This document shows positions 4,094 through 44,297 of a stretch of DNA of 44,297 nt, piece by piece. Position 1 is the stretch's first letter. Every line of letters begins with the position of its first letter. Source of the stretch: a virus. Below the pieces are notes generated by a model. That model did not search any database, was not told the origin of the DNA, and saw only the letters and a list, made by a program, of their open reading frames with translations. Made by a program: the position numbers and the translations under genes. The stretch lies in the IMG/VR virus record IMGVR_UViG_3300009285_001180, positions 1-44,297 of that record; one strand, written 5' to 3'.

Positions 4094-4333
4094 ATGATAA
4101 AAAGTAGAAAAGAAAAACAACTCGAATTAACAAGAAGCAGAATCAAACGGCTTAACGAGATTGCAATTGAGCACGGCTGGGCGAATTGGTCTGCTTATGA
4201 AACTTCTGTATTAAATGGTCTGTGCGCTCCAACAGAGCGTGCAGCGGACGGCTTACAGGCTCATGCGAGCCTATGTAATGTTCACATTGGTAAATCCTGC
4301 AATTGCGGTGAAGGTTGGAAACGCCGCCGCTAA
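4094..4333 (+). CDS. Cassette gene, 79-aa basic protein (cassette C9)
   Basis: Starts 12 bases after the cassette boundary with GGAG upstream of ATG 4094. N-terminal half is highly basic and helical (KSRKEKQLELTRSRIKRL), followed by an EHGWANWSAYETSVL segment; the rest is attC-encoded. It might bind nucleic acid, judged only by charge. Unknown function. Confidence 0.55.
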   Translation: MIKSRKEKQLELTRSRIKRLNEIAIEHGWANWSAYETSVLNGLCAPTERAADGLQAHASLCNVHIGKSCNCGEGWKRRR

Positions 4334-4348
4334 CGCAAACCGTTAGGC
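4227..4348 (+). other. attC: attC site of cassette C9
   Basis: R'' CTCCAAC (4227-4233) exactly complements GTTGGAG at 4082. R' GTTAGGC (4342-4348). Arms GCAGCGGACGGC and GCCGCCGCTAACGC pair with a bulge. Confidence 0.92.
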
Positions 4349-4357
4349 ATCTAAGAA

Positions 4358-4843: not shown

Positions 4844-4895
4844 AATTATCAGGTTCGGCGTTCCCCGTTTTTGCGGGTTACGCAAACCGTTATAA
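4801..4895 (+). other. attC: attC site of cassette C10, abutting the second recombinase
   Basis: R'' GCCTAAC (4801-4807) exactly complements GTTAGGC at 4342. R' reads GTTATAA (4889-4895), deviating from GTTRRRY at its last base because the right half belongs to the ancestral target. Arms GAACCCGACAAAAAC and GTTTTTGCGGGTTACGC pair with a bulge. Confidence 0.9.
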
Positions 4896-12399: not shown

Positions 12400-15300
12400 A
12401 TTGTACTCCTACACCAAGGCGTTTCGCAGTATCCAAAGTAGCCGCAATGGCTTGGGAGGTCTCGGTTGAAAATATCAAGTCCTCGATTACTGCGACATCG
12501 ACGGTAGTAAGGCCACCCATGATATAGCCTTTGGTGGACGAGTTTACCCCTGCGCCATCATATTTAGCAGTATCCAAAGTAGCCGCAATGGCTTGGGAGG
12601 CTTCGGTTGAAAATATCAAGTCCTCGATTACAGCGACTCTGCCAGTGGTAAAGCCTCCCATGATATAGCCTTTGGTGGATGAGTTTACCCCTGCGCCTGA
12701 ATATTTAGCAGTATCCAAAGTAGCCGCAATGGCTTGGGAGGCTTCAGTTGAAAATATCAAATCCTCGATTACAGCGACGTTAACAGTGGTAAACCCTCCC
12801 ATGATGTAGCCCTTTGTGGATGAGTTTACCCCTGCGCCGCTATATTTTGCAGTATCCAGAGTCGCTGCAATGGCCTGTGAAGTTTCAGTTGAAAATATCA
12901 AATCCTCGATTACAGCGACTCTGCCAGTGGCTAACCCTCCCATGATGTAGCCCTTTGTGGATGAGTTTACCCCTGCGCCAAGTCGTTTAGCAGTATCCAG
13001 TGTAGCCGCAATTGCCTGTGAGGTTTCAGTTGAAAAAATCAAATCCTCGATTACAGCGACGTTGACAGAAGTAAACCCACCCATGATATAGCCTTTGTAC
13101 ATAGCTGATGTAGCCGTCAAAATAATGGTCGGTCTATATGCCGCCGTTGCATTGTCCTTGCTGGCATATCGAATAAGATCGCTTATTTGAGTGCCTACAA
13201 ACAAAATAATCCCGTTATTGGTGTATGTGCCGTCGTAGAGCTTTTGAAACTCGTCTGCGTCAAGTGTCATTTCCAATGGGGAGTTTAGGGTGGGCGAAGC
13301 CGCTACCGCCATGCTGCCCATCACCACCGCACCGTCATAATCAGCGGAAGAATCAGACGCTCCCCCGCTAGTCCAGTTGTTGCCAGTAGAATATATATTC
13401 CACGTGGCTTGATTACTGACGACTCCCTGCAAGCATCGATGCGCGTAAAGTGTTCTTGCTGTAGTCGAGAAATCATTAATTGGTGTCAAAGTCAACACAG
13501 CAGATGTAAATCTCATACCTGACGGCATATTTGAAAAATCTGGCTTTATCCACGCCCTTGTTATAAACGATCCATCGGCAGAACCGTCCCCTATATCGAA
13601 ATATGTAGAAGTGTCAAAGTTAACGGTAGGTTCATCAAGCGAAAAATAGGTATCGTCACTCAATGAAAGTATTCTGTTTGTCGCATTCCTCCCCGTAGGC
13701 GTGCCGTTGGGCGTTCCGATTGCCCCAAAGATATTATCCCTTAACAGCAAGCTGCTGGTTAGCGCAACGTCAATATAACTGTCAAGATCGCCCGTCTTGC
13801 ACTGGAACCCTTGAAACACAAGCCCGCTTGTTACAAGGGTTTCGTTTATCACTCCGCTGTTATATAAAGTAACTGCATCGCCTGCGGTTTTAATATCGTT
13901 ATATATTCTTGGGTCGTATATTTTGCCATCAAACGCGCTGTCATAATTGTAAACAGCGGACTTGTTGTTGCCCAAAACAAGCGCGTTGGCATCCTCTGCG
14001 CTCACACTCCCTACGGGTGTCTGTACTTCTGTCAGCGTTTGTGCCGTGCTGTCGATATATATAATGGGGTCGGTGGTCGGTGTGGTGATGTCGTGGGTAA
14101 TTAGTATGTGCGTCCACGTGGTGAGTGGCACGGAGTTGGTCGGGGTGCGCCAAATACCATCAGCAGATGACGCGCCCGTATGCGCCTGGGAAAATTCGAT
14201 TTTCCTGCCTGTATAAACCGAGATGCGATACCCGCTCCCGTATTCACCCGCCCCCAGGTCTGACGCTAAAGAAGACAACGCCCCAAAAATGTACTCCCTT
14301 GAAACTGGATCATCGTCAAGATAAATCCACACACTCCATGAGCGAGTGGTCAGGTTTGACACTTTTGGCAGATAACCGTAGTTTATGCCGTCAGTAGACC
14401 CACCGTCAAATTCAATCGCCAATGGCGCAAGCCCGCCCAGCAGGGATAGTGCCGCTTTGACATACCATTTACATATAATGAGGCCTTCGTTCAATGTAAA
14501 TTCAATCGCCTGTATATAAAAATAGGCGTCAATCCCCAGTTCATCAATGTCGATATGCCTTACATCGCCTACATCGGTATCCAGAAATGCTCTCATATGG
14601 ACATCAGACTTATTAGCAGTAAAGCTGATCCAATTAAGTACCATTTTCGGCTGGTTGAATTCGTCTACAACAGAATCGACAAAGACACGCCCGCTGTATA
14701 GGTCTGTCTTGTATTTTTGATTTATATATCCAGATGCGTCGCCGTAATCGGTAATGGAACTTGAATTCTCGGCAACATATTCTATCGGACTGTGATAGTA
14801 GATGCCGATGCCGCGACAATTGTATTTATTGATATATCCTACGCGCTCATTGTTGTTTGTTACCTGGTGGGTAAAACCTTCCGATCCGTATACAATGGAT
14901 GTCTGTGCGAGGTCTGCGGTAATGTCAGTACCACCGCCGCCTGTAGCCGTGAACATGGTGTAGTCTTTTTGTTCTTCGGGCGTTACCATCGTTTGTGCGT
15001 TAACTCTTAGCCCGCTGTCGGGGTCGGAGTAATTGCCTTTTATCGTCACCGTCTGGCCTGAGCCAATAACAATCTCATCAGCCAGCGAAAACAACACATC
15101 CCTGTAATAGGTCAGGATAATAACGGGTTTGTATCCAGGGGTTTCGTGATTGATGCCAGCGTAATAAATCTGGTCGTTTGATTGGGTGTCTACAAAAAGG
15201 ATAATCCCGTTATTGGTATATGTGCCGTCGTACATCTTTTGAAATTCAGTCACACCCGCCGCGGTGAATTCCATCTCCAGCGCCGTGCCTAGAGTGGGGG

Positions 15301-18666: not shown

Positions 18667-19077
18667 CTAAAGCGCGACACTGGTACGGGTTAGAACTCCA
18701 TCAAACACAGCCTCAGACGAGAATGTTTCAAGGCTGTTGACGCTGCCTGAATACTCAACTGAGGTAATCAATGCTTCGCCGCGATATACGCGGTTGGCGT
18801 AGGCTGTGTATTGGATGGTCTTTGTAGCAGTGGTACGGTTGCCGATCAACGGGCCAAAAACGCTATCGGTGGTTGTATTGACCATGCCCGAAAGGGGAAT
18901 GGTAGCACCCGCCAAGCCAAACAGGTATGAGCGTTCATCATTGGCCAATGATGTATCCTCAATTGTGTCCTGAATGGCGCGCAGGGACGCGCTGGACAGG
19001 AAAGACGTAATATCGGTCAATGTACCTGTTGAGTTGTCAACCTTGATGGTCATATCCTTGAAAATTTTATTTGCCAT
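18667..19077 (-). CDS. Major tail tube protein, second copy, 136 aa
   Basis: Paralogue of the gene at 19087: shares NKIxKDMxxKxDN, DITSxLSSASLRA, VQDT/IQDTIEDTSLA, ERSYLFGLAGATIPLSGMVNTTTD and VEYSGSVNSLETFS. Short tail tube proteins with a DIT(S)YLxS start are typical of siphophages. Probably forms part of the tail tube, or a minor or decorated ring. Confidence 0.75.
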   Translation of the reverse strand: MANKIFKDMTIKVDNSTGTLTDITSFLSSASLRAIQDTIEDTSLANDERSYLFGLAGATIPLSGMVNTTTDSVFGPLIGNRTTATKTIQYTAYANRVYRGEALITSVEYSGSVNSLETFSSEAVFDGVLTRTSVAL

Positions 19078-19086
19078 TATCGACTC

Positions 19087-19521
19087 CTACGAAAGTTGGG
19101 CGCTGGTACGGTTTACCAGACCATCAAATATTGCCTCGGTGCTGAATGTTTCCAGTGAATTGACCGATCCCGAATACTCAACCGAGGTCAGCAAGACTTC
19201 GCCATTGTAGAAACGACCAACATTGCCTGTGCTGTTGGTTGAATAGGCGCGATACTCGATGGTTTTAGTGGCAGTCGTTCGATTGCCCACCAACGGCCCA
19301 AAAATCGCGTCTGTGGTAGTGTTCACCATACCTGAAAGGGGAATAGTTGCGCCCGCGAGACCAAATAAATACGAGCGTTCATCATCGGCCAATGATGTAT
19401 CCTCAATTGTGTCCTGAACGGCGCGCAAAGATGCACTGGACAAATAGGATGTAATATCGGTAATCGAACCTGCGGCATTGTCAATCTTGACCCGCATATC
19501 CTTATAAATTTTATTCGTCAT
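19087..19521 (-). CDS. Major tail tube protein, first copy, 144 aa
   Basis: First of two tandem tail tube paralogues, separated by 9 bases. Eight additional residues in the loop TNSTGNVG distinguish it from the second copy. Position upstream of the chaperone and tape measure genes supports the role. Which copy dominates in the virion cannot be told from sequence. Confidence 0.75.
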   Translation of the reverse strand: MTNKIYKDMRVKIDNAAGSITDITSYLSSASLRAVQDTIEDTSLADDERSYLFGLAGATIPLSGMVNTTTDAIFGPLVGNRTTATKTIEYRAYSTNSTGNVGRFYNGEVLLTSVEYSGSVNSLETFSTEAIFDGLVNRTSAQLS

Positions 19522-21406: not shown

Positions 21407-21658
21407 TTATTTCTTCCTTTCAGTGTCTAAATATTTTGCGCGTCGTTCTGACGCGGTGTTGATAAAATCCTGAATAACAGGAGAGCGCGTACCCTCCAAA
21501 TGGGGAGGCAGTCCATTCCAGTTCACCGCTACAATTTGCGGAGTCCTGTGCATCAAAGTACCGCAATCAGGGCATACGCGCTCAATGCCGCACTCGCTAA
21601 TTGGGTGATGCAGTGTATGAGTATGATGCAATTGGCATCTGTACTGATATGCTGGCAT
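21407..21658 (-). CDS. FmdB-like zinc-ribbon protein, 83 aa
   Basis: MPAYQYRCQ...CGIERVCPDCGTLMHRTPQIV resembles the FmdB/CxxC_CxxC regulatory zinc-ribbon pattern (Y-Y-C-x-G...CP-CG-L.R). The first Cys pair is incomplete here (RCQLHH). It overlaps the C-terminus of the glycosyltransferase-methyltransferase gene by 62 bases in another frame. Role in virion assembly unknown. Confidence 0.6.
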   Translation of the reverse strand: MPAYQYRCQLHHTHTLHHPISECGIERVCPDCGTLMHRTPQIVAVNWNGLPPHLEGTRSPVIQDFINTASERRAKYLDTERKK

Positions 21659-23102
21659 GTCTTTTCACCTTAACCATTCCGATCTCGCGTCCATCGTCGG
21701 TCTTTGTCCTGACGGGTAAATGCGTTATTTCAAAGGCCGTAGCGTCTAGGTTGTCAATGAACTTGTTACATCCCATTCCTTCGGGTTTACTTGAGTGATA
21801 GTAATCATCAAAGACAATCACAGAATTTGAGTGCATTTTGGCAAGCACCCAACTACCGTCATTTTCAATTGTTCCCTCGGAGTGGCCGCCGTCCACAAAA
21901 TACAAATCACTACAACGTATCTCACTAAAAGTTGTCTTGGTGTTTCCTGCGATCAACTTCACGCCCGCACCAGTTGCCTTGATGCGCCTGTAAACAACAT
22001 CCCTCTCCCAGGCCGCTTTAGACAATTCCATTCTGCATTGTTCGGCGGTTTGTTGCTCGAACAAGTCAAAGCCCTGATAGTCAATATGGCTGATGGGGTG
22101 GAATTTTGCCGCCGCCTGTATCATCTGAATGGCTCTGTGGCCGTTCCATGTGCCTACCTCGACTATGTTTTGAGGCTTTTCGGCGTCTATCACGTCTAGC
22201 AGTTGGGCATATCGGCTCATGCCTTTTTGTGGATACAAGTCAATGCTTTCATCAAGCAACCTTCCAAAAAGCAAGGCATGCTCAGAGCAATAATCCTGCC
22301 AGCGCCAGGCTCTTGCAAGTTTATGGCGCATTACAAAAGGCTCTGCAAAAGACTCCAGTTTATCCGCCAACTCTTCAAGTGTTTCATAAGTCTGTTCTTT
22401 GTTAAGCAGGTCTTTTGCATACCCAAAGGCGGGGGAGATGATATCCGCGCCGCTTGCCATCGCCTCCAAAATCGGCAACGGCCCGCCTTCACGGTATCCA
22501 GTAACCAGAAGCAGGTCAATTTGATGGTAGAAAGGGCGAAGTTGTTCGTCTGTCTCGGCGTGAAATGTAGATGCGGCAACGCCTAAAGAATATAATTTTG
22601 AAACCATCTCATCCCATCCTGCGCCGATAAAGATGAATTGGAAGGGCGTCAAGTCATATTGCCATGCTAAATCAAGCAAAAGGCTTTCGCGTTTCCTTCC
22701 GTTGGGTTGTGGGTATCCAACGATGCCGATCAACTTCTTTCTAAAAATATATTGGTCTGCGGCAGCATAGATAACCCACAGCTTGTGAGGACTAACGCCC
22801 AACTCGATCAACTCCTGCCTGCCCGTAAAGGTCATACAGATAATCAAGTCGGCACGTCTGCAAGCATCCATCAAAGCAGCTTCCGCGCCCGCGTTGCAGT
22901 GGGTGTACAAAATGACGTGCTTTCCCTTGCCTTCGTATCCTGTCATCGTATGCCAAGGGATGTGATAGTTCAAGTCTGCTGTATCGTCCGCCGCCTCGCC
23001 ACTTGTTACCTCATACAGCTTTGCGAGTTCGCTTTCAAGTGGCAGATACATCCGCCGCATGGCCGCCGATTGATAGGGGACTACCAGATGAATGCGCTTC
23101 AT
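21597..23102 (-). CDS. Glycosyltransferase (GT-B) fused to a SAM methyltransferase, 501 aa
   Basis: Residues about 1-290 are a GT-B glycosyltransferase (IGVSPHKLWVIYAAADQYIF; GGPLPILEAMASGADIISP is the nucleotide-sugar binding EX7E-like region). Residues about 300-480 are a class I methyltransferase (NIVEVGTWNGHRAIQMI, DLYFVDGGHSEGTIENDGSWV, VIVFDDYYHSS), CmcI/Methyltransf_24-like. The pair would build and methylate a sugar, probably on virion proteins or a host surface target (inference). Bifunctional genes of this kind inside a head module are uncommon. Confidence 0.8.
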   Translation of the reverse strand: MKRIHLVVPYQSAAMRRMYLPLESELAKLYEVTSGEAADDTADLNYHIPWHTMTGYEGKGKHVILYTHCNAGAEAALMDACRRADLIICMTFTGRQELIELGVSPHKLWVIYAAADQYIFRKKLIGIVGYPQPNGRKRESLLLDLAWQYDLTPFQFIFIGAGWDEMVSKLYSLGVAASTFHAETDEQLRPFYHQIDLLLVTGYREGGPLPILEAMASGADIISPAFGYAKDLLNKEQTYETLEELADKLESFAEPFVMRHKLARAWRWQDYCSEHALLFGRLLDESIDLYPQKGMSRYAQLLDVIDAEKPQNIVEVGTWNGHRAIQMIQAAAKFHPISHIDYQGFDLFEQQTAEQCRMELSKAAWERDVVYRRIKATGAGVKLIAGNTKTTFSEIRCSDLYFVDGGHSEGTIENDGSWVLAKMHSNSVIVFDDYYHSSKPEGMGCNKFIDNLDATAFEITHLPVRTKTDDGREIGMVKVKRHASISVQMPIASYSYTASPN

Positions 23103-23971
23103 TACTTTCTCGCTTTCTGCAACCGTTGTATTTCTCTACTGTGGCTATCCTGCATTGCCACTGATAAGCTACGGGCTACATGGGCGGGCTGGTTGAGGTA
23201 ATCGTCCATCTTTACAGGATAAGTCACATCATGCCCGCAATTCACGCCGCTGTCGCCCCACAAGGGGAAGCCTGCCAGCCTTGCGTAAAACGGAAAGCGA
23301 ATATCAGACCCAACCGCATCTTTTACCATCCGAAGCGGTGTCAATTCCTGTAAAAGAACCCTGATATTAGCCTCCATCGTCGGCACATGTGGCTGTTTTA
23401 ATGCGATCTGAGCAGCCAAAGTCTTCAATGCGTTGAATAACTTTTTAAGATCATAGGGCGCAATATCCATGTCGTCCTCGATGATCTCCGGCTCGCCTTT
23501 GAGTATCCTGCGGGTCTTGGTCACTACATCCCTGTGTATCAGGATGCAACCCCATCCACTTGCGCCAATTGGATACAGCCTGTCCTTTTCAGGGACAAAA
23601 GTAAACGGCTTCATTGGCATTTCACCTGCCTTGCCCTGCTCAAACCACACAGGCGCAACGGGGTTGAAAGTGCGCCGCATATAAAAGCCTGAAACAAAGG
23701 GGAGTTTATGACTTCTCAGTAACTCCAATGTGTTCAGCTGAAATATCATGTCATGGTCAAGCAACAACATGAAGGCGTGCTTCGTATTGTCATACCAGTT
23801 GTTAAGGTGCATTTGTCGGGCTTCGTAGCCTTTGGTTGCCCGAACAAATAAAGGCTTGCTGTCGCTCTTGCGTCTTACGATGTTCTCAATACTGTCGCGG
23901 CAAATTCCGTTTTCAGTTTCATTGCCGACTACACCGATATAACAAGAGCCTTTGTATTCTTTTTGTTTCAT
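23102..23971 (-). CDS. GT-A type glycosyltransferase, 289 aa
   Basis: Start chosen at ATG 23971, which overlaps the TGA of the upstream gene. LLLDHDMIF (about residues 65-73) supplies the DxD metal site, and SGWGCILIHRDV a second family motif (GASGWGC). Similar to phage GT2-like enzymes. One-base overlap with the downstream glycosyltransferase gene implies a shared pathway. Confidence 0.78.
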   Translation of the reverse strand: MKQKEYKGSCYIGVVGNETENGICRDSIENIVRRKSDSKPLFVRATKGYEARQMHLNNWYDNTKHAFMLLLDHDMIFQLNTLELLRSHKLPFVSGFYMRRTFNPVAPVWFEQGKAGEMPMKPFTFVPEKDRLYPIGASGWGCILIHRDVVTKTRRILKGEPEIIEDDMDIAPYDLKKLFNALKTLAAQIALKQPHVPTMEANIRVLLQELTPLRMVKDAVGSDIRFPFYARLAGFPLWGDSGVNCGHDVTYPVKMDDYLNQPAHVARSLSVAMQDSHSREIQRLQKARK

Positions 23972-24231
23972 AACGGCGCTCCGCATTGTGCGCAAGTGCC
24001 GTATGTTTCTTCGTTCAGTGTTCCACAATAAAAGCATCTTGGTTTTTCTGTTGCTTTTACTAAATTCACCTCACCAGCCAAATACTTTTCAATTTTCTTG
24101 AAAGCCTCTGCCATTTCGTCTGAATTTCTCGGACTTATAAGCAAAACAAATTTTGCGCTTATCTCCGTAAGACTGCCAGCCTCACGAGATAAATCGTATC
24201 TCACACACCGAAGGGCTATTTTCTGCGCCAT
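23968..24231 (-). CDS. Zinc-ribbon-tailed protein, 87 aa
   Basis: N-terminal alpha/beta piece, then a C-terminal four-cysteine ribbon (CFYCGTLNEETYGTCAQCGAPL). A similar ribbon ends the protein at 27354, suggesting the two share a zinc-ribbon module used in head proteins. Coupled by ATGA to the glycosyltransferase. Confidence 0.6.
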   Translation of the reverse strand: MAQKIALRCVRYDLSREAGSLTEISAKFVLLISPRNSDEMAEAFKKIEKYLAGEVNLVKATEKPRCFYCGTLNEETYGTCAQCGAPL

Positions 24232-24680: not shown

Positions 24681-25628
24681 CTAAACCACATCAGCAAAGA
24701 AGTAGCCCAGGTCGGTAGCAATGGCCTTTTGATCCCAAGCTTCGGAATTTTGCAAAACATCACTCTTGGTTTGGTCTTCGCGATATTGGACAATCGAACC
24801 TTGTCCACCACCGCCAGCCCACGAGAAGCTATATCCTGCCGACGCTTCCATGATGCCAGGGGTCGGGGTAACATAAGTTACAAGGCAGTCGTCATCGATC
24901 ACAGCAGCGGCAACCATTGTCTGGCCTTCGTTTGCGCTGTTATATGACGCTTTGGCTACCCAATAATTCTGTACACCGAAACAGGAGGCGAGGGCCAACT
25001 CCATGTTTGCATTTGTCGCCAGTTGAACGTGCTTAACACGGTCAACGATGTCGGGGTGATTGACAAGCGCCTGATGCACGATGTAACCAAGCGCCATTGT
25101 ATTGCCGTCGTAGCCCGTGTTGTTACTAACAGTGCGGCGGGCGGTCAAGACATCGTTGACAGGATCACCACTGGTGAAATCGTCCCAATCGGTTGTGCTG
25201 TTGTTGTCGTCTGTGCCCCAAACGCCAGTTTTCATAAAGTCCACACTGAAAGCGCGTTCCTTGCGAATAAGGGACTGTTGAGCAAGCCAGCGCAAGCCAG
25301 TCTGCTCAAGAGACATAGGCATTTGATTGTTATTGCGATCTTCATCCGCGATTGGATGTTCCAAACCCCACAGAATAGCCGTGCCTGTAGTGCTTTCCAC
25401 GCCGTACCCTGAGCGGGCAAACTTGCCGCCCGGAGCGCGGTTCTTGATCTCATCCAAGAACCAATATTTCTTGGTCAGGATGTAGTAAGTAAATCCCTTT
25501 TTATCAACTTGTACTTGAGGGAAGATGCGCGAGGCGATAAAGCGATCACTCGCCTGCATGTATCCCAAGAGCATGTTGGTCAGGACGGGATCAACTGCCT
25601 GAATTGAAGAACCGGTAGGTTGGGACAT
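24681..25628 (-). CDS. Major capsid protein, 315 aa
   Basis: Single long head gene between the decoration-like protein and the protease/scaffold gene. N-terminal DPVLTNMLLGYMQASDRFIASRIFP and a C-terminal ATDLGYFFADVV agree with the phage major capsid family (lambda gpE-like, HK97 fold) often described with a FI..RIFPxVxV start. Forms the capsid shell. Confidence 0.85.
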   Translation of the reverse strand: MSQPTGSSIQAVDPVLTNMLLGYMQASDRFIASRIFPQVQVDKKGFTYYILTKKYWFLDEIKNRAPGGKFARSGYGVESTTGTAILWGLEHPIADEDRNNNQMPMSLEQTGLRWLAQQSLIRKERAFSVDFMKTGVWGTDDNNSTTDWDDFTSGDPVNDVLTARRTVSNNTGYDGNTMALGYIVHQALVNHPDIVDRVKHVQLATNANMELALASCFGVQNYWVAKASYNSANEGQTMVAAAVIDDDCLVTYVTPTPGIMEASAGYSFSWAGGGGQGSIVQYREDQTKSDVLQNSEAWDQKAIATDLGYFFADVV

Positions 25629-26038: not shown

Positions 26039-26581
26039 TTATTTCTCCTTTTTCACAGCCCAAGCCGTGAACAGTTCAGGATTTTCGGATTTGACAATCT
26101 CGAAAGCGGTGTTGTAATCCACTTTCTTTTCAGCCGAATACTTCAATACCAGTGCGTTAAAGGCCGCCTTCGGGTCGTCGATTGCGCCGCCCTCAGTGCC
26201 TTCCTCGCCGAGTAGTTTTGTGGTGTTGATCTGCGCGATAAAGGCGCGGAAATTCCGCATACACCATTCGCGCTGTTCGGGGGACATGCCAGCCATCATT
26301 GAAGCGGCTTCATCGGCAGCTTTTGACTCGACATACTGCATTCCGAAGTTGTCTTTGTTTTGCAGTTCAGCGACGATCTTGGCCTTTTCCGCAACAGCTT
26401 TTTCAACCTGTTCGCGTTCGGCTAATTTCGCCTTGAATTCATCGCGCTCTTGCTTCGTGGCTTCGTAATCCTCTGGCACAACCTCGATTTTTTGAGGTTC
26501 GACAGGGGTGAGCTTGCTGTTCAGAAAAGCCGTGAATGTGTCCCACAATCCAGCAGGGACAGAAATGTTTTCTGTTGCCAT
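26039..26581 (-). CDS. Nested scaffold protein (internal start), 180 aa
   Basis: An AAAGGAGA ribosome site directly precedes an in-frame ATG (26581) in the middle of the protease gene. The product is the scaffold region alone, as in Mu gpZ. It would supply excess scaffold for capsid assembly. Confidence 0.72.
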   Translation of the reverse strand: MATENISVPAGLWDTFTAFLNSKLTPVEPQKIEVVPEDYEATKQERDEFKAKLAEREQVEKAVAEKAKIVAELQNKDNFGMQYVESKAADEAASMMAGMSPEQREWCMRNFRAFIAQINTTKLLGEEGTEGGAIDDPKAAFNALVLKYSAEKKVDYNTAFEIVKSENPELFTAWAVKKEK

Positions 26582-27049
26582 ATCTTTCTCCTTTGTAACA
26601 GGTTCAATACTATATAACGCTGTTGCTTCCCCCAGATGCGGGGTGTGTAACATTGCGTCGCCCAAGATCAACGGTCCCATTATGTAGTTGCCGTTGGTTG
26701 GGTCTTCCAGTCCTGCATCGTCCCAGATGACCTCTGGACTGTGATAGCGGTATGAGCCATCACTGAGGGCTATACTTCCTTTGTCGTTCCATTCAGGGAC
26801 GGCATATAAACCATCCTCGCGCACTTCCAAGCCGACGATATGCCCGCCTGCGGGCGTCTCATCTTCATGGCTGCCCAATTTCACGGGCGGCTTGAAGTGT
26901 GGAAGTTTGAATTTTTGTGCATACTCAGGAGTGATTTCCCGTGTCTTCCCATTCTTTACGATTTTGCCAAACGGAAACAGGCGGTAAGGTTCGCCCATCT
27001 TTGTATTCACATAATCGTCAATTAAAAAAGTCGTGTCCATTTGCCTCAA
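26039..27049 (-). CDS. Prohead protease with C-terminal scaffold (Mu gpI-like), 336 aa
   Basis: Residues about 1-150 match Mu-like prohead proteases (KNGKTREIT, GSHEDETPAGGHIVGLEVREDGLYAVPEWNDKG, SYRYHSPEVI, MLHTPHLGEATAL). Residues about 157-336 are a helical charged scaffold. The two parts are encoded together, and the second is also made alone from an internal start. The protease trims capsid proteins and scaffold after prohead assembly. Confidence 0.85.
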   Translation of the reverse strand: MRQMDTTFLIDDYVNTKMGEPYRLFPFGKIVKNGKTREITPEYAQKFKLPHFKPPVKLGSHEDETPAGGHIVGLEVREDGLYAVPEWNDKGSIALSDGSYRYHSPEVIWDDAGLEDPTNGNYIMGPLILGDAMLHTPHLGEATALYSIEPVTKEKDMATENISVPAGLWDTFTAFLNSKLTPVEPQKIEVVPEDYEATKQERDEFKAKLAEREQVEKAVAEKAKIVAELQNKDNFGMQYVESKAADEAASMMAGMSPEQREWCMRNFRAFIAQINTTKLLGEEGTEGGAIDDPKAAFNALVLKYSAEKKVDYNTAFEIVKSENPELFTAWAVKKEK

Positions 27050-28775: not shown

Positions 28776-29371
28776 GCGTTTAGTATCCTTTCAACCTGCG
28801 CCATGACTGCATCCACATTTACAACTGGCGAATTCCAGCAACGGCAGCGGACGTGTATCGGCGGCTTATGTCCATAATCATCTACATCAAATATCTGCCC
28901 CGCGAGAGGGGAGCAATACGGGCAAACTTTATCATCTCTTGACGTATTGAACTTTACTTGTGAAACAAACCCGGTTGCTTTCCACGCAATCGCATTACCC
29001 TCGGCAAACGCCCTGGTTATCTCTGTTACAGCTATCATGTTTGCCCTGTTTGCGCCGAAGATAGGTGTCAAAGTAGTTTCCAATACACTCAACGGATCAC
29101 CGCTGCGTATCCAATTTGATAACGCCTCCTGTACCTGTGTTCTGGTTGTCTCGGTTATCTTCTTGATCAAGTCATAGCGGTACTTCTCAATAAACTTTAG
29201 CGCGTCCGTGTTAAGCACATCGTAATCGAGAAGGGTTTGAAGTTCGGGCGGCAAAGTATTTATACCGCCATCCATGCCAGAAAAAAGCGCGGATAGATAC
29301 AGGCCAGATGCAGCCTCCCATAACAAAGCCTCTTCACTCAACCAGAATTGACTATCAAACGGGCTTGGCAC
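28772..29371 (-). CDS. Phage head morphogenesis protein (SPP1 gp7/Mu F-like), 199 aa
   Basis: Core ANRANMIAVTEITRAFAEGNAIAWKATGF followed by KVCPYCSPLAGQIF and HVRCRCWNSPV, the standard head morphogenesis/F-like pattern with a zinc-type Cys/His set. Overlaps the portal gene by 17 bases. A few copies are injected or sit at the portal in related phages. Confidence 0.87.
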   Translation of the reverse strand: MPSPFDSQFWLSEEALLWEAASGLYLSALFSGMDGGINTLPPELQTLLDYDVLNTDALKFIEKYRYDLIKKITETTRTQVQEALSNWIRSGDPLSVLETTLTPIFGANRANMIAVTEITRAFAEGNAIAWKATGFVSQVKFNTSRDDKVCPYCSPLAGQIFDVDDYGHKPPIHVRCRCWNSPVVNVDAVMAQVERILNA

Positions 29372-30788
29372 TTCTCATCTCTTTAGCAGCTTTTAATATC
29401 CGCTTGCGCTGACCGTCCAAAAACTCGCTCATCATTTTCTCGTATTGTTTCTCGAATTTGGTACGCTTTGCTTCGTCTGGCGGGTCGGCCTCGTAATGCG
29501 TAATTGTATTCTGTTCTGGCTTTGTCACGCGCTCAGCAAATGCCTTAGCCGCCTCTGTGCGTTGTTTCATGACTTCTTCACGCTCACCCTTAAGCTGTTC
29601 GGGGTCACGTTCTGGCGCGCCTGCCAACTGGCGCAGCCATAACTCGTCATTCTCGTCCCACGTCAACAGGTCTTTGATGGAGGCTAGGAACGCGCCTATC
29701 TTTTCAATGTTCACACTCGATGCGGGGGTGTGCTCCAGCTTGATACGCTTGATCTCTTCCTCGGACGCGCCGTTCAGCTTTAACAAACGGTATACCGCAT
29801 ACTTGGTAAATGTCTCACTTACAATGTCGGCAATGGTGTTGACTGCCGACATGAAAAAGTCAATTGAATTCTCGCTCAGAGCCAACGAGCCGACGCCATC
29901 CTGGCCGAGCAAAAGGAACTGCGAGAAAAACGCCGTTGCAATTCGCTTCTCATATCGCTCTATAGCGTTGGACAATTGCTCAAACGACTTACCTGCGCCA
30001 CTTGCCAATGTAAACGCCCACTGATAAGGTAGCACTAGTCCCGCTTGTTCGTCAACACGGATATTCCTCACGATCTTGGCCGCCTTACTTGCGTCACTGT
30101 TGGTATCGTCCTCATTTGTGTTCGCGCCTTGCGGTAGATTGATAACAGGCATACCGCTCACGTCGCGCTCGAAACCTATGCCCTCGATTTGTTGCAGGTT
30201 TTTGAGATAGTAATAGGACACCCAGGCGATACGCAGTAACGAACGGCCTTCGGGGTTGTTCTTTTCCAGTCGTGTACGAAACAGGATTGATTTCTCAATC
30301 GGCACATCAACCGCCTGAAACACAGGCGCGGCAAGCTGCCTGTATCCCTTCAATCCACCTGTATCATCAAACAACCATTGATAAATCGTGTCCTGCCCAC
30401 GTATGGCAAATTTGCGCCATAAGTAGCGCCCGCGTTCGTCCTTCTGATATACGATCTCGAACATGGAAAAGCCAGCCCAAACAAAAGATATGGACTCGCT
30501 GATAAAGTCGTTCCATGATTGAGACATGGCTGCACGCGATTCGTTCAGCAGTTCTAGCCAGGGGTCGTTTTCGTTGTCGCTACTGAATTCCCACGACATT
30601 GAACGGATAATGTATTCAATGGCCAGCAGCCCCGCGCCAATAGTCGCGTTGTTGAGCCGCATTTCGTTGAAGCGTTTATACGCCTCTTTGCCGTGAAACT
30701 CTTTCAGAAAATCGTCCTTGATCTGGCCGTTATATTCAATCAGCCCCGTATAGCCTACCTCGCCTTTCTGTGTTTTTACGTTTGCCAT
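29355..30788 (-). CDS. Portal protein (DUF935/Mu gp29-like), 477 aa
   Basis: ATIGAGLLAIEYIIRSMSWEF near the N-terminus, LEKNNPEGRSLLRIAWVSYYYLKN in the middle and QFLLLGQDGVGSLALSENSIDFFMSAVNTIAD in the stem region are diagnostic for the Mu gp29-type portal. Forms the dodecameric DNA channel; the start ATG is preceded by GAGGAAAG. Confidence 0.88.
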   Translation of the reverse strand: MANVKTQKGEVGYTGLIEYNGQIKDDFLKEFHGKEAYKRFNEMRLNNATIGAGLLAIEYIIRSMSWEFSSDNENDPWLELLNESRAAMSQSWNDFISESISFVWAGFSMFEIVYQKDERGRYLWRKFAIRGQDTIYQWLFDDTGGLKGYRQLAAPVFQAVDVPIEKSILFRTRLEKNNPEGRSLLRIAWVSYYYLKNLQQIEGIGFERDVSGMPVINLPQGANTNEDDTNSDASKAAKIVRNIRVDEQAGLVLPYQWAFTLASGAGKSFEQLSNAIERYEKRIATAFFSQFLLLGQDGVGSLALSENSIDFFMSAVNTIADIVSETFTKYAVYRLLKLNGASEEEIKRIKLEHTPASSVNIEKIGAFLASIKDLLTWDENDELWLRQLAGAPERDPEQLKGEREEVMKQRTEAAKAFAERVTKPEQNTITHYEADPPDEAKRTKFEKQYEKMMSEFLDGQRKRILKAAKEMRSAKPV

Positions 30789-30928: not shown

Positions 30929-31018
30929 ATATAACGTTTGCGTTACCCGCGTGGGGGTTTCGCAACCTTGTTATTTTTCGCCACCGTACCCCCACGTCGG
31001 GTGCACGCTGTGTTATGC
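30929..31018 (-). other. attC: attC site of the lone late-operon cassette C11
   Basis: Read on the minus strand: R'' GCATAAC (31018-31012), ACAGCGTGCACCCGACGTGGGGG, then CCCCCACGCGGGTAACGC and R' GTTATAT (30935-30929). The arms pair well with one bulge. R'' exactly complements GTTATGC at the cassette's left edge (31455-31449), whereas R' differs, because the TTATAT half comes from the target. Confidence 0.92.
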
Positions 31019-31041
31019 CGCTACTCAACCCACACATAACC

Positions 31042-31407
31042 TTACTGGGGAATTGAGCCGATACGCTCATTACTTTTGACGTCAGTGGCGAAAATTACCA
31101 AGACATCGCTTTTTTTGAGATACTCAGGTAAGGTGAGATACTCACGGTAACTATCACCTTTTTCTTCTAGGTATTCTCCATCTTGATATTTACAATTGCG
31201 CTCATAGGCTGTTGCTTTCTCTAATGTTTCATACTCGCTAATATAGTAATCATCGCCGCAACATGTACAAGTTACGCGCTTGGGACTATGATCGAAACGA
31301 TTATAGAAAATGATTTTTGCTTCATTCTCTGGTGCTTCGATGAAGCAATGTGAAAAGTTTTCTTTCTGCCCACCGCCTGAGTGCATATCCATAAATTCTG
31401 TGAACAT
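31042..31407 (-). CDS. Cassette gene, 121-aa phage-type protein (cassette C11)
   Basis: Start chosen at ATG 31407 with AAAGGA 7 bases upstream. TEFMDMHSGGG at the start and KIIFYNRFDHSPKRVTCTCCGDDYYISE in the middle form a compact protein with a CTCC metal-type knuckle; similar small proteins with this MDMHSGGG-like beginning occur in many phages, function unknown to me. It is transcribed with the late genes, directly after the large terminase gene. Confidence 0.7.
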   Translation of the reverse strand: MFTEFMDMHSGGGQKENFSHCFIEAPENEAKIIFYNRFDHSPKRVTCTCCGDDYYISEYETLEKATAYERNCKYQDGEYLEEKGDSYREYLTLPEYLKKSDVLVIFATDVKSNERIGSIPQ

Positions 31408-31448
31408 AATATTTTCCTTTCTTGGCTCGACACCTTTAGCAAGGTGCG

Positions 31449-31464
31449 GCATAACATTATATCA
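31449..31464 (-). other. Insertion junction of cassette C11 after terL
   Basis: The terL stop TGA (31464-31462) is followed by TATAATG, then TTATGC of the cassette. Excising 30935-31454 restores TATAATG^TTATATT ahead of the tRNA-Tyr gene. The cassette thus entered a G^TT target between terL and the tRNA. Confidence 0.8.
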
Positions 31465-32898
31465 ATACTTCTTTGCCCAGCCCGCAGCCTCATCAGCCTC
31501 GCGGAATTTGGACGCCTGCGCGGGTTGCTTGGAAATGGGCGAGCCCATATTACAAGCCCACCACGCTATACCCAAACCTATAACCGTATCGTCGTGTCCG
31601 TCCCCCTCTGCCGCCAGCCGCCATAAACCTGTTGCGGTTTGAGTTGACACATAAGTACTCATTTCGTGACGCTGTACGGAATGGTCTTGCAACTGCAACC
31701 CGTCTGTATGTATTCCTTCGTACAAATCTGACATGATCTCAGACTTACTTGCGTTTGTCGTTTCAAAGGGGATAACATTCATTCCGTCTTTTTGCAGCAA
31801 TTCAATATTGACACTACCGATACTATTCATTTCAGCGCCCATACGCTTACAGCGCCACTTCTTATACATTTCCTTTATCCGCTTACGCTGTTCGCTCCAT
31901 TCCAATTTACGGATATGCAATAAGTCAACTTGTACCTTTGCCGTCTTATTTATCACCGGCATGGCAGTAAAATCATTCGTTTGCCCGAAGTCCAACCCCG
32001 CCACGTACTCATGGTCTGGATTGTACTCCGCATTCATAGGAGCGGTAAAGACATTCGGCAAATCACCAAAGTAGCTGTTCCCCGAAGTCAAGAAACAGGA
32101 GATTGGATCCTCAGGATACTCCTGTGTGAACAACCTTTTCAATTCGTCAACCTTCATCCGACGCCATCGCAGCTGCGAATGGTCAAGGTTGTGTTTGCGG
32201 ATTAGCTCGGCCTCTTCATCAGTCGGCTTGATCAGCTCACCGTCCAGCCTGTACTCCGCATCCCACCACCAAGGGAAGAAATGCAACGACCATACACCGC
32301 TTCCACTAAGCGCCTCCATGCACAACTCGTAGAACTTGCCCTGCGCCCCGTTAGGCGTGGACTCCAGCACCACATCGGGATCACCGCCCTGCATTGCGCC
32401 CGCGATGATCTTCTCGGCGTCAGGCCAGAACGCAACCTCTGAGCCGTGGAAATCGGTGTATGTGCCACCGCGTCCCTTTGCTTTGCCACCCGCTGTGCCT
32501 ATCGTGACTTCGCTATCGAATTCGGGATAGGTAGTCACACTGGCATTGGCATAATGGCGCATGGGCTGAATATCCCCAAACTTGCAGTGCTTCCAGAAGC
32601 GGTCCGCCATCGCCCGCAGCTTTTGGGTCGTGTCGGCGTCGTGCGCCAGGGAGATGGTCGTGCGCGTGCTGGTCACTGCGCGGCGGTATAGCTCTCCTTG
32701 AATGTAAGTGGAGAACCCCAATTGCCGACTTTTGAGGATAAGATCACGCCCTGTTCGGTTTGCGTGAAAATGCGCCTGTGCCTTATTCCATACAAAACGC
32801 CTGAGCCGTTTCTGCTTGTCCAGAATTCGCAGGAACTTCTCGGCAAAGAGCGCGGGGTCAGTCGCTATCTGTTTCGGCGTCAGGGTCTTCGTCGGCAT
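31462..32898 (-). CDS. terL: Terminase large subunit, 478 aa
   Basis: ATPase N-terminal half with a Walker A-like LKSRQLGFST (about 55-64) and acidic TYTDFHGSEVAFWPDAEK (Walker B region), motif III VLESTPNGAQ; nuclease half begins at AGLDFGQTNDFTAM with later acidic residues and ends with DGHDDTVIGLGIAWW. Packages DNA into proheads. The start region overlaps the small terminase stop by 41 bases in a different frame. Confidence 0.92.
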   Translation of the reverse strand: MPTKTLTPKQIATDPALFAEKFLRILDKQKRLRRFVWNKAQAHFHANRTGRDLILKSRQLGFSTYIQGELYRRAVTSTRTTISLAHDADTTQKLRAMADRFWKHCKFGDIQPMRHYANASVTTYPEFDSEVTIGTAGGKAKGRGGTYTDFHGSEVAFWPDAEKIIAGAMQGGDPDVVLESTPNGAQGKFYELCMEALSGSGVWSLHFFPWWWDAEYRLDGELIKPTDEEAELIRKHNLDHSQLRWRRMKVDELKRLFTQEYPEDPISCFLTSGNSYFGDLPNVFTAPMNAEYNPDHEYVAGLDFGQTNDFTAMPVINKTAKVQVDLLHIRKLEWSEQRKRIKEMYKKWRCKRMGAEMNSIGSVNIELLQKDGMNVIPFETTNASKSEIMSDLYEGIHTDGLQLQDHSVQRHEMSTYVSTQTATGLWRLAAEGDGHDDTVIGLGIAWWACNMGSPISKQPAQASKFREADEAAGWAKKY

Positions 32899-40403: not shown

Positions 40404-40525
40404 CGGTTCCTGAAAGCCAGACAGAGACCGCGAATCGCCAAGGCGAGACAATTCCAGCCCCACAAGAGGCTGGAATTTCGCTTTCCAATCCACCGGAGCG
40501 CGCCACTAATAACGAAAATAGGGAA

Positions 40526-40840
40526 GTGGAGGGTTGGCTTGCGACACTTGGAAGGAACGCCACTAATGCAACTAACTATGCAACTAACCCAAAAATTAGT
40601 GGAGCATGGGTGGAATTGGTCAAGGTGAAGAAATGGTACTCAATGCGCCTTATGCGATGGGACGCAACTAACAAAAGGAAAGTTTATGTCAAATACATCG
40701 GAACTCTCAAAAAATGCAAAGAAGATGCAGTCTACTCGGCCGAAGCCTACCGACTTGAAAAGCGAAGATTTACAGTTAGTGGCGGAAAGACTGGCCTTGA
40801 TCCAGGGCCATATCAGCCACATGCCGACTATTTGCATTAG
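40526..40840 (+). CDS. Unknown protein, 104 aa, start uncertain
   Basis: GTG 40526; the same frame is open upstream to 40364 without a start codon. The middle WYSMRLMRWDATNKRKVYVKYIGTL resembles a small basic beta domain found in DNA-associated phage proteins. The coding frame overlaps the 10-mer cluster. Confidence 0.45.
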   Translation: MEGWLATLGRNATNATNYATNPKISGAWVELVKVKKWYSMRLMRWDATNKRKVYVKYIGTLKKCKEDAVYSAEAYRLEKRRFTVSGGKTGLDPGPYQPHADYLH

Positions 40841-40955
40841 TGGCGCGACTGTTATGAACGGCTTTTTGTTAGTTGCGTTGAAGGTGAATGGGCACGAATT
40901 TTCAATAGAAAATGGCATTTGGATGCTGGACAAAAAAGATGTCACAATTTATTAG
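40686..40955 (+). CDS. Unknown protein, 89 aa
   Basis: ATG 40686 preceded by AAAGGAAAG. Overlaps the 40526 frame by 155 bases; only one may be expressed strongly. Central CISGATVMNGFLLVALKVNGHEFS looks like a small beta unit. No family. Confidence 0.45.
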   Translation: MSNTSELSKNAKKMQSTRPKPTDLKSEDLQLVAERLALIQGHISHMPTICISGATVMNGFLLVALKVNGHEFSIENGIWMLDKKDVTIY

Positions 40956-40975: not shown

Positions 40976-41092
40976 ATCTCACAGTTGACTTTCGGGCGTT
41001 TTGTTTTCCTAGCCAAAAAGCCGTCTACCTGAAGCGTCCGAGTCACTGTGAGAGGTACTAGGAAGTCAGGCAGGCGGCTCTTTGTTTAGGAG
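40976..41092 (+). ncRNA. Structured leader RNA upstream of the HNH-AP2 gene
   Basis: Three helices interleave. P1: 40978-40998 with 41035-41052 (CTCACAG/CTGTGAG, TGACT/AGTCA, more). P2: AGCCGTCTACCTGA (41019-41032) with TCAGGCAGGCGGCT (41066-41079). P3: TTCCTAG (41006-41012) with CTAGGAA (41058-41064). P1 and P2 are mutually exclusive or pseudoknotted; P2 is followed by CTTTGTTT. No known class recognised. Confidence 0.55.
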
Positions 41093-41097
41093 TGACC

Positions 41098-41589
41098 ATG
41101 AAAGAAATACCGCTTACACAAGGGAAAGTCGCACTGGTTGATGATGATGTGTTTGAATTCCTCAACCAGTGGATATGGCATACACAGAAAGATAAAAATA
41201 GATTCTATGCTGTGCGGAAAGAAGGCAAATTTCCATCCAGAAAAGCGATAAAGATGCACAGAATAATCATGAATGCACCTAATGGCATGGAAGTCGATCA
41301 TTGGGACGGAGATGGACTAAACAATCAACGGAATAATTTGCGAATATGCACAAAGGCGCAGAATCAGCATAATCGAAGAAAGAATGCTAATAACACCAGC
41401 GGTTACAAAGGCGTGAGCTTTGATAAAAAGAGTGGAAAATTTAGGGCATACATAAATATCAACGGCAAGCGAACTAATCTTGGTTTTTTCACCGACCCTA
41501 TCGCCGCCGCCAATACTTACAACCAAGCGGCCTGCAAAAGTCATGGCGAGTTTGCAAAGATTAACCTTTTAGAACAGAGACCAGAATGA
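41098..41589 (+). CDS. HNH endonuclease with AP2 DNA-binding domain, 163 aa
   Basis: Start at ATG 41098, AGGAG 5 bases upstream. HNH part HRIIMNAPNGMEVDHWDGDGLNNQRNNLRICT (about 51-82), then an AP2-like GYKGVSFDKKSGKFRAYININGKRTNLGFFTDPIAAANTYNQAA (about 102-145). Homing endonuclease type that spreads among phages. The upstream structured RNA may regulate it. Confidence 0.9.
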   Translation: MKEIPLTQGKVALVDDDVFEFLNQWIWHTQKDKNRFYAVRKEGKFPSRKAIKMHRIIMNAPNGMEVDHWDGDGLNNQRNNLRICTKAQNQHNRRKNANNTSGYKGVSFDKKSGKFRAYININGKRTNLGFFTDPIAAANTYNQAACKSHGEFAKINLLEQRPE

Positions 41590-42060: not shown

Positions 42061-42747
42061 ATGGACTATTCCTCCGCCTACTCCCTGTCCCGCGATCTGC
42101 TCAAACGCATCGCCCCGGCTTGCCTGCGGATTGAGACCGTCGGCTCCGTCAAACGGGGCGACCCGAAGGCATGTGCCAATGGAGTACATGACATAGAATT
42201 TCTCATCATCCCCGATCCCGCTCGTATACCACCCGTGTTCGGTGCGGGAACAAACCAGCCAAAGAACAAACTCGAAAGGCTAATAGCCGATCTCAAAGCG
42301 GATGGAATAATCAGTGACCCGCAGTATGTACGCAAGGCTGAGGGTGAGAGGTATAAAAAGTATGCCATCGTGGGCCATGAGTATACAGACTCCGAGACAA
42401 AACTCCCTAAGGATTTCTGCGTTGAGTTCTGGATCGTCACGGCCTGCACCTGGGCCGTTCAGAATGTGATCCGAACGGGTCCGAGCGCCTTTTCCCAAAG
42501 GTTTGTAACCCCTGATAATCAGATGTGCTTTCATAAGCCAAGCGGCAAGACTTATAAGGGATTGCTGCCTGCATATTACGAGTACGTCAGGAATGAAGAT
42601 CGGGACGCAGATTCAACACAAATCAGGGTGAGAAGCACAAAGGAACCGATTAAACTGAATGAGGAAAAGGACGCCATCAGGCTACTGGGGTTGAGGCCGG
42701 AGAGTGATTACTGGATACCAGCAGACGAAAGATATATGTATATTTGA
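42061..42747 (+). CDS. DNA polymerase beta-like nucleotidyltransferase, 228 aa
   Basis: ETVGSVKRGDPKACANGVHDIEFLIIPDP (about 22-50) carries the GS...D-x-E nucleotidyltransferase motif; the FCVEFWIVTACTWAVQNVIRTGPSAFSQRFV block supports the PolX-like family. Lacks the HhH and C-terminal parts of full PolX. Common in phages; repair or tRNA/nucleic-acid modification role unknown. The stop codon overlaps the -35 box of the array 1 promoter. Confidence 0.78.
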   Translation: MDYSSAYSLSRDLLKRIAPACLRIETVGSVKRGDPKACANGVHDIEFLIIPDPARIPPVFGAGTNQPKNKLERLIADLKADGIISDPQYVRKAEGERYKKYAIVGHEYTDSETKLPKDFCVEFWIVTACTWAVQNVIRTGPSAFSQRFVTPDNQMCFHKPSGKTYKGLLPAYYEYVRNEDRDADSTQIRVRSTKEPIKLNEEKDAIRLLGLRPESDYWIPADERYMYI

Positions 42748-42773
42748 CAAAGTTGTATAAATTGCGATATAAT
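42744..42773 (+). promoter_or_regulatory. Strong array 1 promoter (Pc/PintI candidate)
   Basis: TTGACA (42744-42749), 18-base spacer, TATAAT (42768-42773), a full consensus promoter in front of the cassettes. A second TATAAT (42794-42799) lies just before the insertion point. Before cassettes were inserted, it would have driven intI directly. Confidence 0.85.
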
Positions 42774-42784
42774 GAGTTATACAA
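42753..42784. promoter_or_regulatory. Operator-like palindrome over the array 1 promoter
   Basis: TTGTATAA (42753-42760) and TTATACAA (42777-42784) are perfect 8-base inverted arms flanking and covering the -10 box. The related dyad at 6691-6719 suggests a shared repressor. Confidence 0.6.
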
Positions 42785-42793
42785 GTCGAGTAG

Positions 42794-42811
42794 TATAATT
42801 CTATGTTCTAC
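42794..42811 (+). other. attI-like insertion point of array 1
   Basis: TATAATTCTAT then GTTCTAC (42805-42811), the left edge of cassette C1. R'' of its attC (GTAGAAC, 43172) is the exact complement. Joining G42805 to TT869 gives TTCTATG^TTATGCCC, placing the ancestral site directly at the intI start codon. Confidence 0.7.
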
Positions 42812-42836
42812 CGCCCCTTGCTAAAGAAGGTTTCCA

Positions 42837-43046
42837 ATGAATAAAATTTTATACAAAGCATTTGAGAAAGCAAAAAGTGAAGGTCGCGTTTGTCGTCGAT
42901 GTGGCTGGATGATTACTAAGAAAAATTGGGCAAAGGGTTTTCTTCTTTGTGCGGGTTGCTGGAGCGCACTTCAAGGTGTAAATGTATCAAGTGGCTGGCA
43001 TCAACCACAGCAAGAGAAAATAGATATAACTGGTGAGGCGTTATGA
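42837..43046 (+). CDS. Cassette gene, 69-aa zinc-ribbon protein (cassette C1)
   Basis: AGAAGG upstream of ATG. CRRCGW (about 19-24) and CAGCW (about 38-42) form a four-Cys zinc ribbon within a basic, aromatic protein. First gene after the promoter. Its TGA overlaps the start of the following gene. Confidence 0.65.
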   Translation: MNKILYKAFEKAKSEGRVCRRCGWMITKKNWAKGFLLCAGCWSALQGVNVSSGWHQPQQEKIDITGEAL

Positions 43047-43267
43047 TGTTTACTAAGCAATTTAATATATCTGTGCGTTGTGTTCGTTGTAATGCAAAGT
43101 TGGATTGTGCCTTACGCGAATCTGATGAGCATGATCTTGTCGTGTTAGTTGATCGCCATAATTGTCACGCGGTAGAACACAGCGTGCAGCCGACTCCTGA
43201 AAGCGGGCGCGAATTGCCCGTCGAGTCAAATGATAGCGAAGGTTCTGCGCCCGCAATCAGCGGCTAA
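43043..43267 (+). CDS. Second gene of cassette C1, 74 aa, Cys-rich
   Basis: ATGA overlap with the previous gene. ISVRCVRCNAKLDC (about 9-22) gives a CxxC plus Cys cluster and RHNC closes a probable zinc site; the C-terminal 30 residues are attC-encoded. Cassette C1 is another two-gene cassette. Unknown. Confidence 0.6.
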   Translation: MMFTKQFNISVRCVRCNAKLDCALRESDEHDLVVLVDRHNCHAVEHSVQPTPESGRELPVESNDSEGSAPAISG

Positions 43268-43282
43268 CGCAAACCGTTAGAC
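43172..43282 (+). other. attC: attC site of cassette C1
   Basis: R'' GTAGAAC (43172-43178) exactly complements GTTCTAC at 42805. R' GTTAGAC (43276-43282). L'' ACAGCGTGCAGCCGAC and L' GCGGCTAACGCAAACC match the family consensus. Confidence 0.88.
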
Positions 43283-43308
43283 CCCTTCGTGAGAATAGCA
43301 AAGGTATC

Positions 43309-44214
43309 ATGCAAACAAACGTAATCCACACAGGCGATTCAGCCGAAGTCCTAAAGTCATTCCCCGATGGGTGTATTGATCTGTCTGTGCAATCCCCGCC
43401 TTATGATAGCCTGAGAGAATACAACGGCTTCAAGTTTGATTTTGAAACTATCGCAAGTCAGTTATATCGAGTTACTAAAAAAGGTGGCGTTTGCGTTTGG
43501 GTCGTAAGTGATGGCACGGTAAACGGTTCTGAAACAGGCACATCATTTAGACAAGCACTTTATTTCATGGAGTGTGGTTTCAATCTTCACGATACTATGA
43601 TTTACGAAAAAGATAGTTTGAACATGCCACAATCAAACAGGTACTATCAGGTTTCAGAGTATATGTTTGTATTCAGCAAGGGAAGCCCTAAAACAGCAAA
43701 TCTCTTGCAAGAGAAAACTATCCATCGTGGCAATAATCATTCGTCAACCACAAGGCAGGTAGATGGCACATTGAAAAATCATAAATACGAAACTGGAAAA
43801 GCCACAAGAAACAAAGGTAATGTTTGGCGTTTTGGCGCAGGGTATATGAAATCAACAACAGATAAGCAAGCCTTTGAGCATCCCGCCATGTTTCCAGAAG
43901 CACTTGCCAGGGATCATATAGAAACTTGGTCAAATGAAAATGATATTGTGCTTGACTGTTTCGCTGGCAGTGGCACTACTTTGAAAATGGCAAAGATGTT
44001 ATCCCGTCAATACATTGGTATCGAGATAAGCCCTGAATATGTCACACTTGCAGAGAAGCGGTTACTTGCAACCAATGTACCACTCTTCGGGCAAGGGCGG
44101 GGTCTAACACTGCCTGCACCTGACGGGGGGGATTCTGCGCACTCCCAAGCATTATCCACGCCCGATATGTTTTCTGCTATCGAGCATGAGCCTACGCCCG
44201 CCCCCCGCAGGTAA
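43309..44214 (+). CDS. DNA methyltransferase, beta-class (N4-cytosine/N6-adenine), cassette C2
   Basis: 301 residues in the beta order: catalytic motif IV SPPYDSLREY (about 29-38) comes first, and the SAM-binding motif I DCFAGSGTT (about 222-230) near the end, with PAMFPEALARDHIETWS between. SPPY favours N4-cytosine methylation, although some such enzymes modify adenine. No partner restriction enzyme lies nearby, so it is probably an orphan methyltransferase that guards phage DNA from restriction. The last 37 residues lie in attC. Confidence 0.87.
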   Translation: MQTNVIHTGDSAEVLKSFPDGCIDLSVQSPPYDSLREYNGFKFDFETIASQLYRVTKKGGVCVWVVSDGTVNGSETGTSFRQALYFMECGFNLHDTMIYEKDSLNMPQSNRYYQVSEYMFVFSKGSPKTANLLQEKTIHRGNNHSSTTRQVDGTLKNHKYETGKATRNKGNVWRFGAGYMKSTTDKQAFEHPAMFPEALARDHIETWSNENDIVLDCFAGSGTTLKMAKMLSRQYIGIEISPEYVTLAEKRLLATNVPLFGQGRGLTLPAPDGGDSAHSQALSTPDMFSAIEHEPTPAPRR

Positions 44215-44229
44215 GGCTTACCGTTATGC
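44102..44229 (+). other. attC: attC site of cassette C2
   Basis: R'' GTCTAAC (44102-44108) exactly complements GTTAGAC at 43276. R' GTTATGC (44223-44229). Arms GCACCTGACGGGGGG and CCCCCCGCAGGTAAGGC pair with a bulge. The following cassette (C3) starts here and leaves the window. Confidence 0.9.
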
Positions 44230-44252
44230 GCCTTCGGGCAAAGGAGTCAGTT

Positions 44253-44297
44253 ATGGATACAGGTCAAGGAAGGTTTGAACAAATCAATGCCGCAACC
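44253..44297 (+). CDS. Frame running off the window end (cassette C3), partial
   Basis: ATG 44253 with AAAGGAG upstream opens 15 codons to the end of the window. If the sequence is circular, it reads on for four codons from position 1 and stops at TAA (13-15), giving a 19-residue peptide; if not, it could be longer. Unknown function. Confidence 0.35.
   Translation, partial: MDTGQGRFEQINAAT

Follow-up and report, generated by a model that had tools for sequence, protein, structure and literature searches.

Integrons have been studied mostly as bacterial gene-capture platforms. Phage examples were described by Qi et al. (2023; PMC9892861), who reported four temperate phages with an IntI and 17 phage CALINs, found that five phage attC sites work with IntI1, and proposed escape from restriction as the role of the phage cassettes; virulent phages with CALINs only are also known (PMC9892861). 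Since phage integrons were already on record in that study, the preliminary description of the DNA analysed here, which held that a phage with its own IntI and several cassette loci is not an established system, was too strong on this point. Integrons that are co-directional with their intI are known from Treponema (PMC3607928), and the word integron is absent from the paper on Virus Rctr41k (Gambelli et al. 2016; PMC5099504), a virus to which we return below. A literature search, with preprints and subscription journals outside its scope, turned up no further account of phage integrons among viruses that are uncultivated.

The window (the whole stretch of DNA that was analysed, 44,297 nucleotides) is positions 1-44,297 of the IMG/VR record IMGVR_UViG_3300009285_001180, a metagenomic contig of an uncultivated virus. 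It is a tailed-phage (Caudoviricetes) genome, as had been proposed, with a terminase large subunit, a portal and a major head protein on one record; a tape-measure protein was also recognised, alongside the following genes:

4899-5828, plus strand: second tyrosine recombinase, of Xer/phage-integrase type and not an IntI, beginning directly 3' of cassette array 2
9985-11730, minus strand: endolysin-like protein (phrog_291, 3.2e-23)
24681-25628, minus strand: major head protein (phrog_1005, 4.8e-66)
26039-27049, minus strand: head maturation protease (phrog_328, 1.1e-10)
29355-30788, minus strand: portal protein (phrog_113, 2.6e-62)
31462-32898, minus strand: terminase large subunit, TerL (phrog_2, 3e-26)

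The second tyrosine recombinase is perhaps the phage's integrase. Elsewhere in the genome, 141-base tandem repeats (12422-13126) lie within a minus-strand ORF of 1359 amino acids, a 286-base repeat (77%) at 18667-19521 is common to two adjacent ORFs and is likely a gene duplication, glycosyltransferase-like genes sit within the structural module (21597-24037), and the arms of an inverted repeat, in which ACTAAT/ATTAGT motifs recur (40499-40847), are found just before an HNH-AP2 gene (41092-41589). An Rfam search of the window gave no matches.

The same genome holds an integron integrase gene and 11 cassettes, which fall into three loci: array 1, with five cassettes, runs from 42805 across the ends of the record to 868, array 2, also with five, occupies 2641-4889, and one lone cassette lies at 31454-30935 on the minus strand. 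Array 1 begins after a PolX-like gene and ends at the start of intI. In array order, with array 2 and the lone cassette after intI, the features are:

42061-42747, plus strand: PolX-type nucleotidyltransferase-like ORF, its type assigned by motif reading
42744-42773, plus strand: sigma-70 promoter TTGACA-18-TATAAT, putatively Pc-like, 32 nt before array 1
42774-42812, plus strand: putative attI at the start of array 1, a candidate by its position, with the first G/TT at 42805
42806-43276, plus strand: array 1 cassette 1, small ORFs 42837-43046 and 43043-43267; attC 43172-43282
43277-44223, plus strand: array 1 cassette 2 (A1c2), N6/N4 DNA methyltransferase 43309-44214; attC 44102-44229
44224-44297 and then 1-366, plus strand: array 1 cassette 3 (A1c3), 86 bases missing at the join; attC damaged
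367-602, plus strand: array 1 cassette 4, small ORF 371-598; attC 516-608
603-868, plus strand: array 1 cassette 5, small ORF 608-859; attC 752-874, directly before intI
877-1908, plus strand: intI, integron integrase of 343 amino acids with all catalytic residues and the integron-specific insertion
2642-3155, plus strand: array 2 cassette 1, small ORFs 2680-2877 and 2880-3092; attC 3037-3161
3156-3847, plus strand: array 2 cassette 2 (A2c2), DNA methyltransferase 3171-3731 (phrog_799, 1.4e-57); attC 3743-3853
3848-4082, plus strand: array 2 cassette 3, small CxxC protein 3861-4073 (weak zinc-ribbon match); attC 3997-4088
4083-4342, plus strand: array 2 cassette 4, small ORF 4094-4333; attC 4227-4348
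4343-4889, plus strand: array 2 cassette 5 (A2c5), Mom-like DNA modification protein 4358-4843 (phrog_1384, XF1762 family); attC 4801-4895
30935-31454, minus strand: lone cassette between terL and tRNA-Tyr, ORF of 136 amino acids 31042-31452; attC 30929-31018

The bases that open a genuine cassette, just after G/TT, complement its own R'' box, and this was so for the first 8-9 nt of every one of the 11 cassettes (one with a G-T pair; permutation 0/200,000); the 8-nt complementarity test is symmetric and so was left out of the orientation calls. A motif scan saw 9 distinct attC sites at a threshold giving 0.05 expected per shuffled window, and a covariance model trained on 28 attC of other viruses only, none of them from the window, matched 10 of the 11 (E values from 6e-16 to 5e-4) with no other match up to E=1. 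The site that it missed was that of A1c3, in which R'' and L'' are present and the L' half is lost. In the training set 99.6% of the L''/L' stem was paired and compensatory changes were numerous, with 38 compensatory cells where shuffles averaged 18 (0/500); slid-alignment controls paired 16-33% of cells compared to 94% for the stem. The bottom strand of most attC folds into the typical hairpin with its extrahelical base. Judged from the sequence, the attC sites are genuine and the cassette boundaries established, which bears out the earlier count of 11 cassettes in three loci and answers, with significant matches, the covariance check that had been suggested for it.

A sibling phage, G069, contains 86 bases, within its copy of cassette A1c3, which are absent between the end and the start of the window. 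As A1c3 is continuous in G069 and the gap falls exactly at the window ends, the two ends meet, and the record lacks 86 bases there. The proposal that array 1 runs across the ends thus stands, A1c3 being in the correct array order, but the record is not exactly closed.

The product of intI matched the integron integrase model TIGR02249 of NCBIfam with 258 bits (1.2e-76), missing its 265-bit cut-off by 7 bits; the best Xer-type model reached 122.6 bits, and XerC/XerD about 80 bits or less. Its best solved structure was IntI4 of V. cholerae (1.5e-45), in an alignment that spans the integron-specific insertion read by the preliminary description, and both the IntI-specific patch and the catalytic residues are intact. 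Identity as XerC/XerD was ruled out by the profile scores, by this insertion and by tree placement, the window IntI not grouping with Xer in the phylogeny that had been called for. In a careful tree it pairs with a chromosomal Anaerolineae sequence, its nearest relative at 44% identity (L321), within a virus-rich clade of 6 rows, 4 of them viral (97/90), and 9 of the 10 sampled chromosomal IntIs of Anaerolineae fall outside this clade (100/96). A virus-only clade for the window IntI was dropped once the chromosomal relative had turned up, and a viral origin of all IntI, hinted at by a first quick tree, was dropped when the careful tree shifted the root order; the deep branching order of the IntI trees is unsettled, and we make no claim on the origin of integrons. 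A chromosomal Anaerolineae IntI that is 44% identical to that of the window and has the same C-terminal insertion (L343, G202:C11, 1638-2657) adjoins mannosyltransferase and ApbE genes, and no recognised attC lies nearby.

A single-sequence scan of viral contigs with IntI found no relatives, and an alignment-based scan found 300, of which the best 80 were kept. By a motif-free test, half of the viral IntI loci (43 of 86) carry at least two linked cassettes, compared to 0 in shuffles, and merging at 95% identity left 36 viral IntI lineages with linked cassettes, suggesting that phage-resident integrons are common. The array is on the 5' side of intI in 23 of these lineages and on the 3' side in 12, with 1 ambiguous, and many 3'-type loci have a first cassette, co-oriented with intI, that starts within tens of bases of the intI stop codon. 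A terminase or portal gene was present in all 13 tested contigs of 3' type or of its close IntI relatives, including Virus Rctr41k; in 5'-type contigs such hallmarks were recovered in only part of the cases tested (few families), which makes their viral status less secure. Near-identical attC hairpins were seen in two pairs of loci (L071:7424-7530 and L134:9662-9768; L002:9305-9434 and L168:9333-9462). A pattern-only count of attC in IMG/VR was discarded, as tens of chance matches are expected for the 16-base pattern in so large a collection (an estimate).

Cassettes of the window recur in other phages. A1c3 is 97-100% identical in G069, whose structural genes are only 67-76% identical to those of the window, which indicates recent cassette transfer and upholds the view that cassettes move between phages. 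In G001, a phage with an otherwise unrelated backbone, the Mom-like cassette A2c5 recurs with 84% DNA identity. L039 holds an attC 98% identical to that of A1c2, and L084 one 95% identical to that of A2c2. Outside the window, the near-identical hairpins of the pairs L071/L134 and L002/L168, which belong to phages with IntIs of different clades, suggest wide cassette exchange. In two related phages (G025, locus L307, and L306) terL is followed directly by the portal gene, with neither cassette nor tRNA between them.

As to the likely host, the attC model found 42 sites in one Anaerolineales genome, 39 in another and 0 in five genomes of other phyla, and a homologue of the portal (45% identity) adjoins a terminase small subunit in an Anaerolineae genome. 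The attC type and this homologue together suggest that the host probably belongs to the class Anaerolineae (Chloroflexota).

The promoter at 42744-42773 has 12 of 12 consensus bases and was the only such site within the 4.3 kb scanned. The PolX-like ORF before it gave no match in searches of profile libraries, and its homologues in further integron phages (L168, L150 and L184) stand before intI, so array 1 appears to be set between two genes of an older module, and the PolX-like gene is a possible functional partner of intI. No array-intI junction of the window was found in the other contigs scanned.

We consider it likely that this tailed phage, itself most likely a phage of Anaerolineae, carries a working integron of its own, that it shares a cassette pool with its host and that it uses the integron for swapping anti-restriction genes. 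The IntI, from its virus-rich branch and which we infer to be catalytically active, would probably recombine folded single-stranded attC with an attachment site near 42805, this position being, or having been, the attI site; new cassettes would thereby be placed behind the promoter, and cassettes and intI may be read as one unit. The cassettes shared by distinct phages are indirect support for recombination by the IntI. Secondary-site insertions, made by the phage IntI or by a host IntI acting on this attC type during infection, could account for array 2 and for the lone cassette next to terL. The pool sampled would be the Anaerolineales-type cassettes common to host chromosomes and other phages. 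The two DNA methyltransferases and the Mom-like protein in the cassettes are probable anti-restriction genes, and this cargo points to restriction escape, so that the main benefit to the phage would probably be the swapping of DNA-modification genes to escape restriction by the host. Several observations weigh against an integron of the phage's own: arrays are present in the sibling phages G025 and G069, where no IntI was found, the nearest IntI relative is chromosomal, with no recognised attC nearby, the TIGR02249 score falls short of its cut-off, array 1, which is upstream of and co-directional with intI, has neither the classical nor the reverse layout, and the array-intI junctions of the window were found in no other contig scanned.

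The main rival, which we regard as unlikely, is that the arrays are passive, with host integrases moving the cassettes in trans and the phage IntI incidental or inactive. It owes this place to the sibling phages G025 and G069, where cassette arrays are present and no IntI was found, and it fits the roughly 40 attC of the same type in Anaerolineales chromosomes and the existence of virulent phages with CALINs only (PMC9892861). The IntI of the window is, on the other hand, full length with its catalytic residues and directly follows an array, and other phages have arrays next to their IntI in which the first cassette lies as close to intI as a functional attI would predict. That the locus is a captured fragment of a host chromosomal integron, as in the Vibrio anguillarum phages, seems very improbable. 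Its attC are of Anaerolineales type and such capture is documented for other phages (PMC9892861), but in known cases of capture, in Vibrio and Shewanella phages, the phage IntIs cluster with those of the hosts (in the first quick tree), whereas that of the window stands apart from the main chromosomal IntIs of Anaerolineae and so is no recent capture from the usual integron of the host; its layout also differs from the divergent chromosomal one, and there are three separate loci. A chimeric assembly that joined phage DNA to a bacterial integron, which a metagenomic contig with bases missing at its ends might bring to mind and which the preliminary description had named among the outcomes that would refute it, is hardly credible, as the lone-cassette locus, between terL and the portal gene, is 100% identical in two other contigs, the end-crossing cassette is in the correct array order, and sibling and unrelated phages hold the same kind of arrays.

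The reading of a working integron belonging to the phage can be extended beyond this genome. Similar integrons in dozens of uncultivated viral contigs suggest that phages trade genes via a system known mainly from bacteria, and on balance we favour the view that phages keep long-lived IntI lineages as a standing platform for trading anti-restriction and other cassettes, both among themselves and with the chromosomal integrons of their hosts; the platform would come in several layouts, one of which has attI at the 3' end of intI. If many phages do own IntI lineages and shared cassettes, they would both carry and shuffle the cassette pool, and this matters for the spread of cassettes between hosts and for the acquisition of counter-defence genes by phages. 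The window and its relatives supply concrete attC, attI and IntI sequences with which this can be tested.

Among described systems, the Anaerolineales chromosomal integrons (L207 and L219) have the same attC type by the covariance model but a different IntI clade, and the array of L207 is divergent from intI in the classical manner. The Treponema integrons (PMC3607928) are chromosomal, belong to another IntI clade and have their array after intI, compared to before it in array 1 of the window. Virus Rctr41k (KX853513; PMC5099504) is, like the window, a tailed virus from a viral metagenome with the same attC type, and the gene named "xerD" in it encodes an IntI, with a co-oriented attC array behind it; the virus differs in its IntI, which is of another viral clade, and in having the array downstream of intI. 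The phage integrons and CALINs of Qi et al. (PMC9892861) resemble the window in being phage genomes with IntI and/or attC cassettes and in having DNA methyltransferase cargo. The complete integrons among them were chromosomal ones of the hosts, a class 1 mosaic carried on P1, or an inactive prophage, unlike the window with its IntI of a phage-rich lineage, three cassette loci and likely Chloroflexota host. What is added to those cases is an IntI of a phage-rich lineage and not one taken from the host, several arrays in one genome, and many counterparts among uncultivated viruses.
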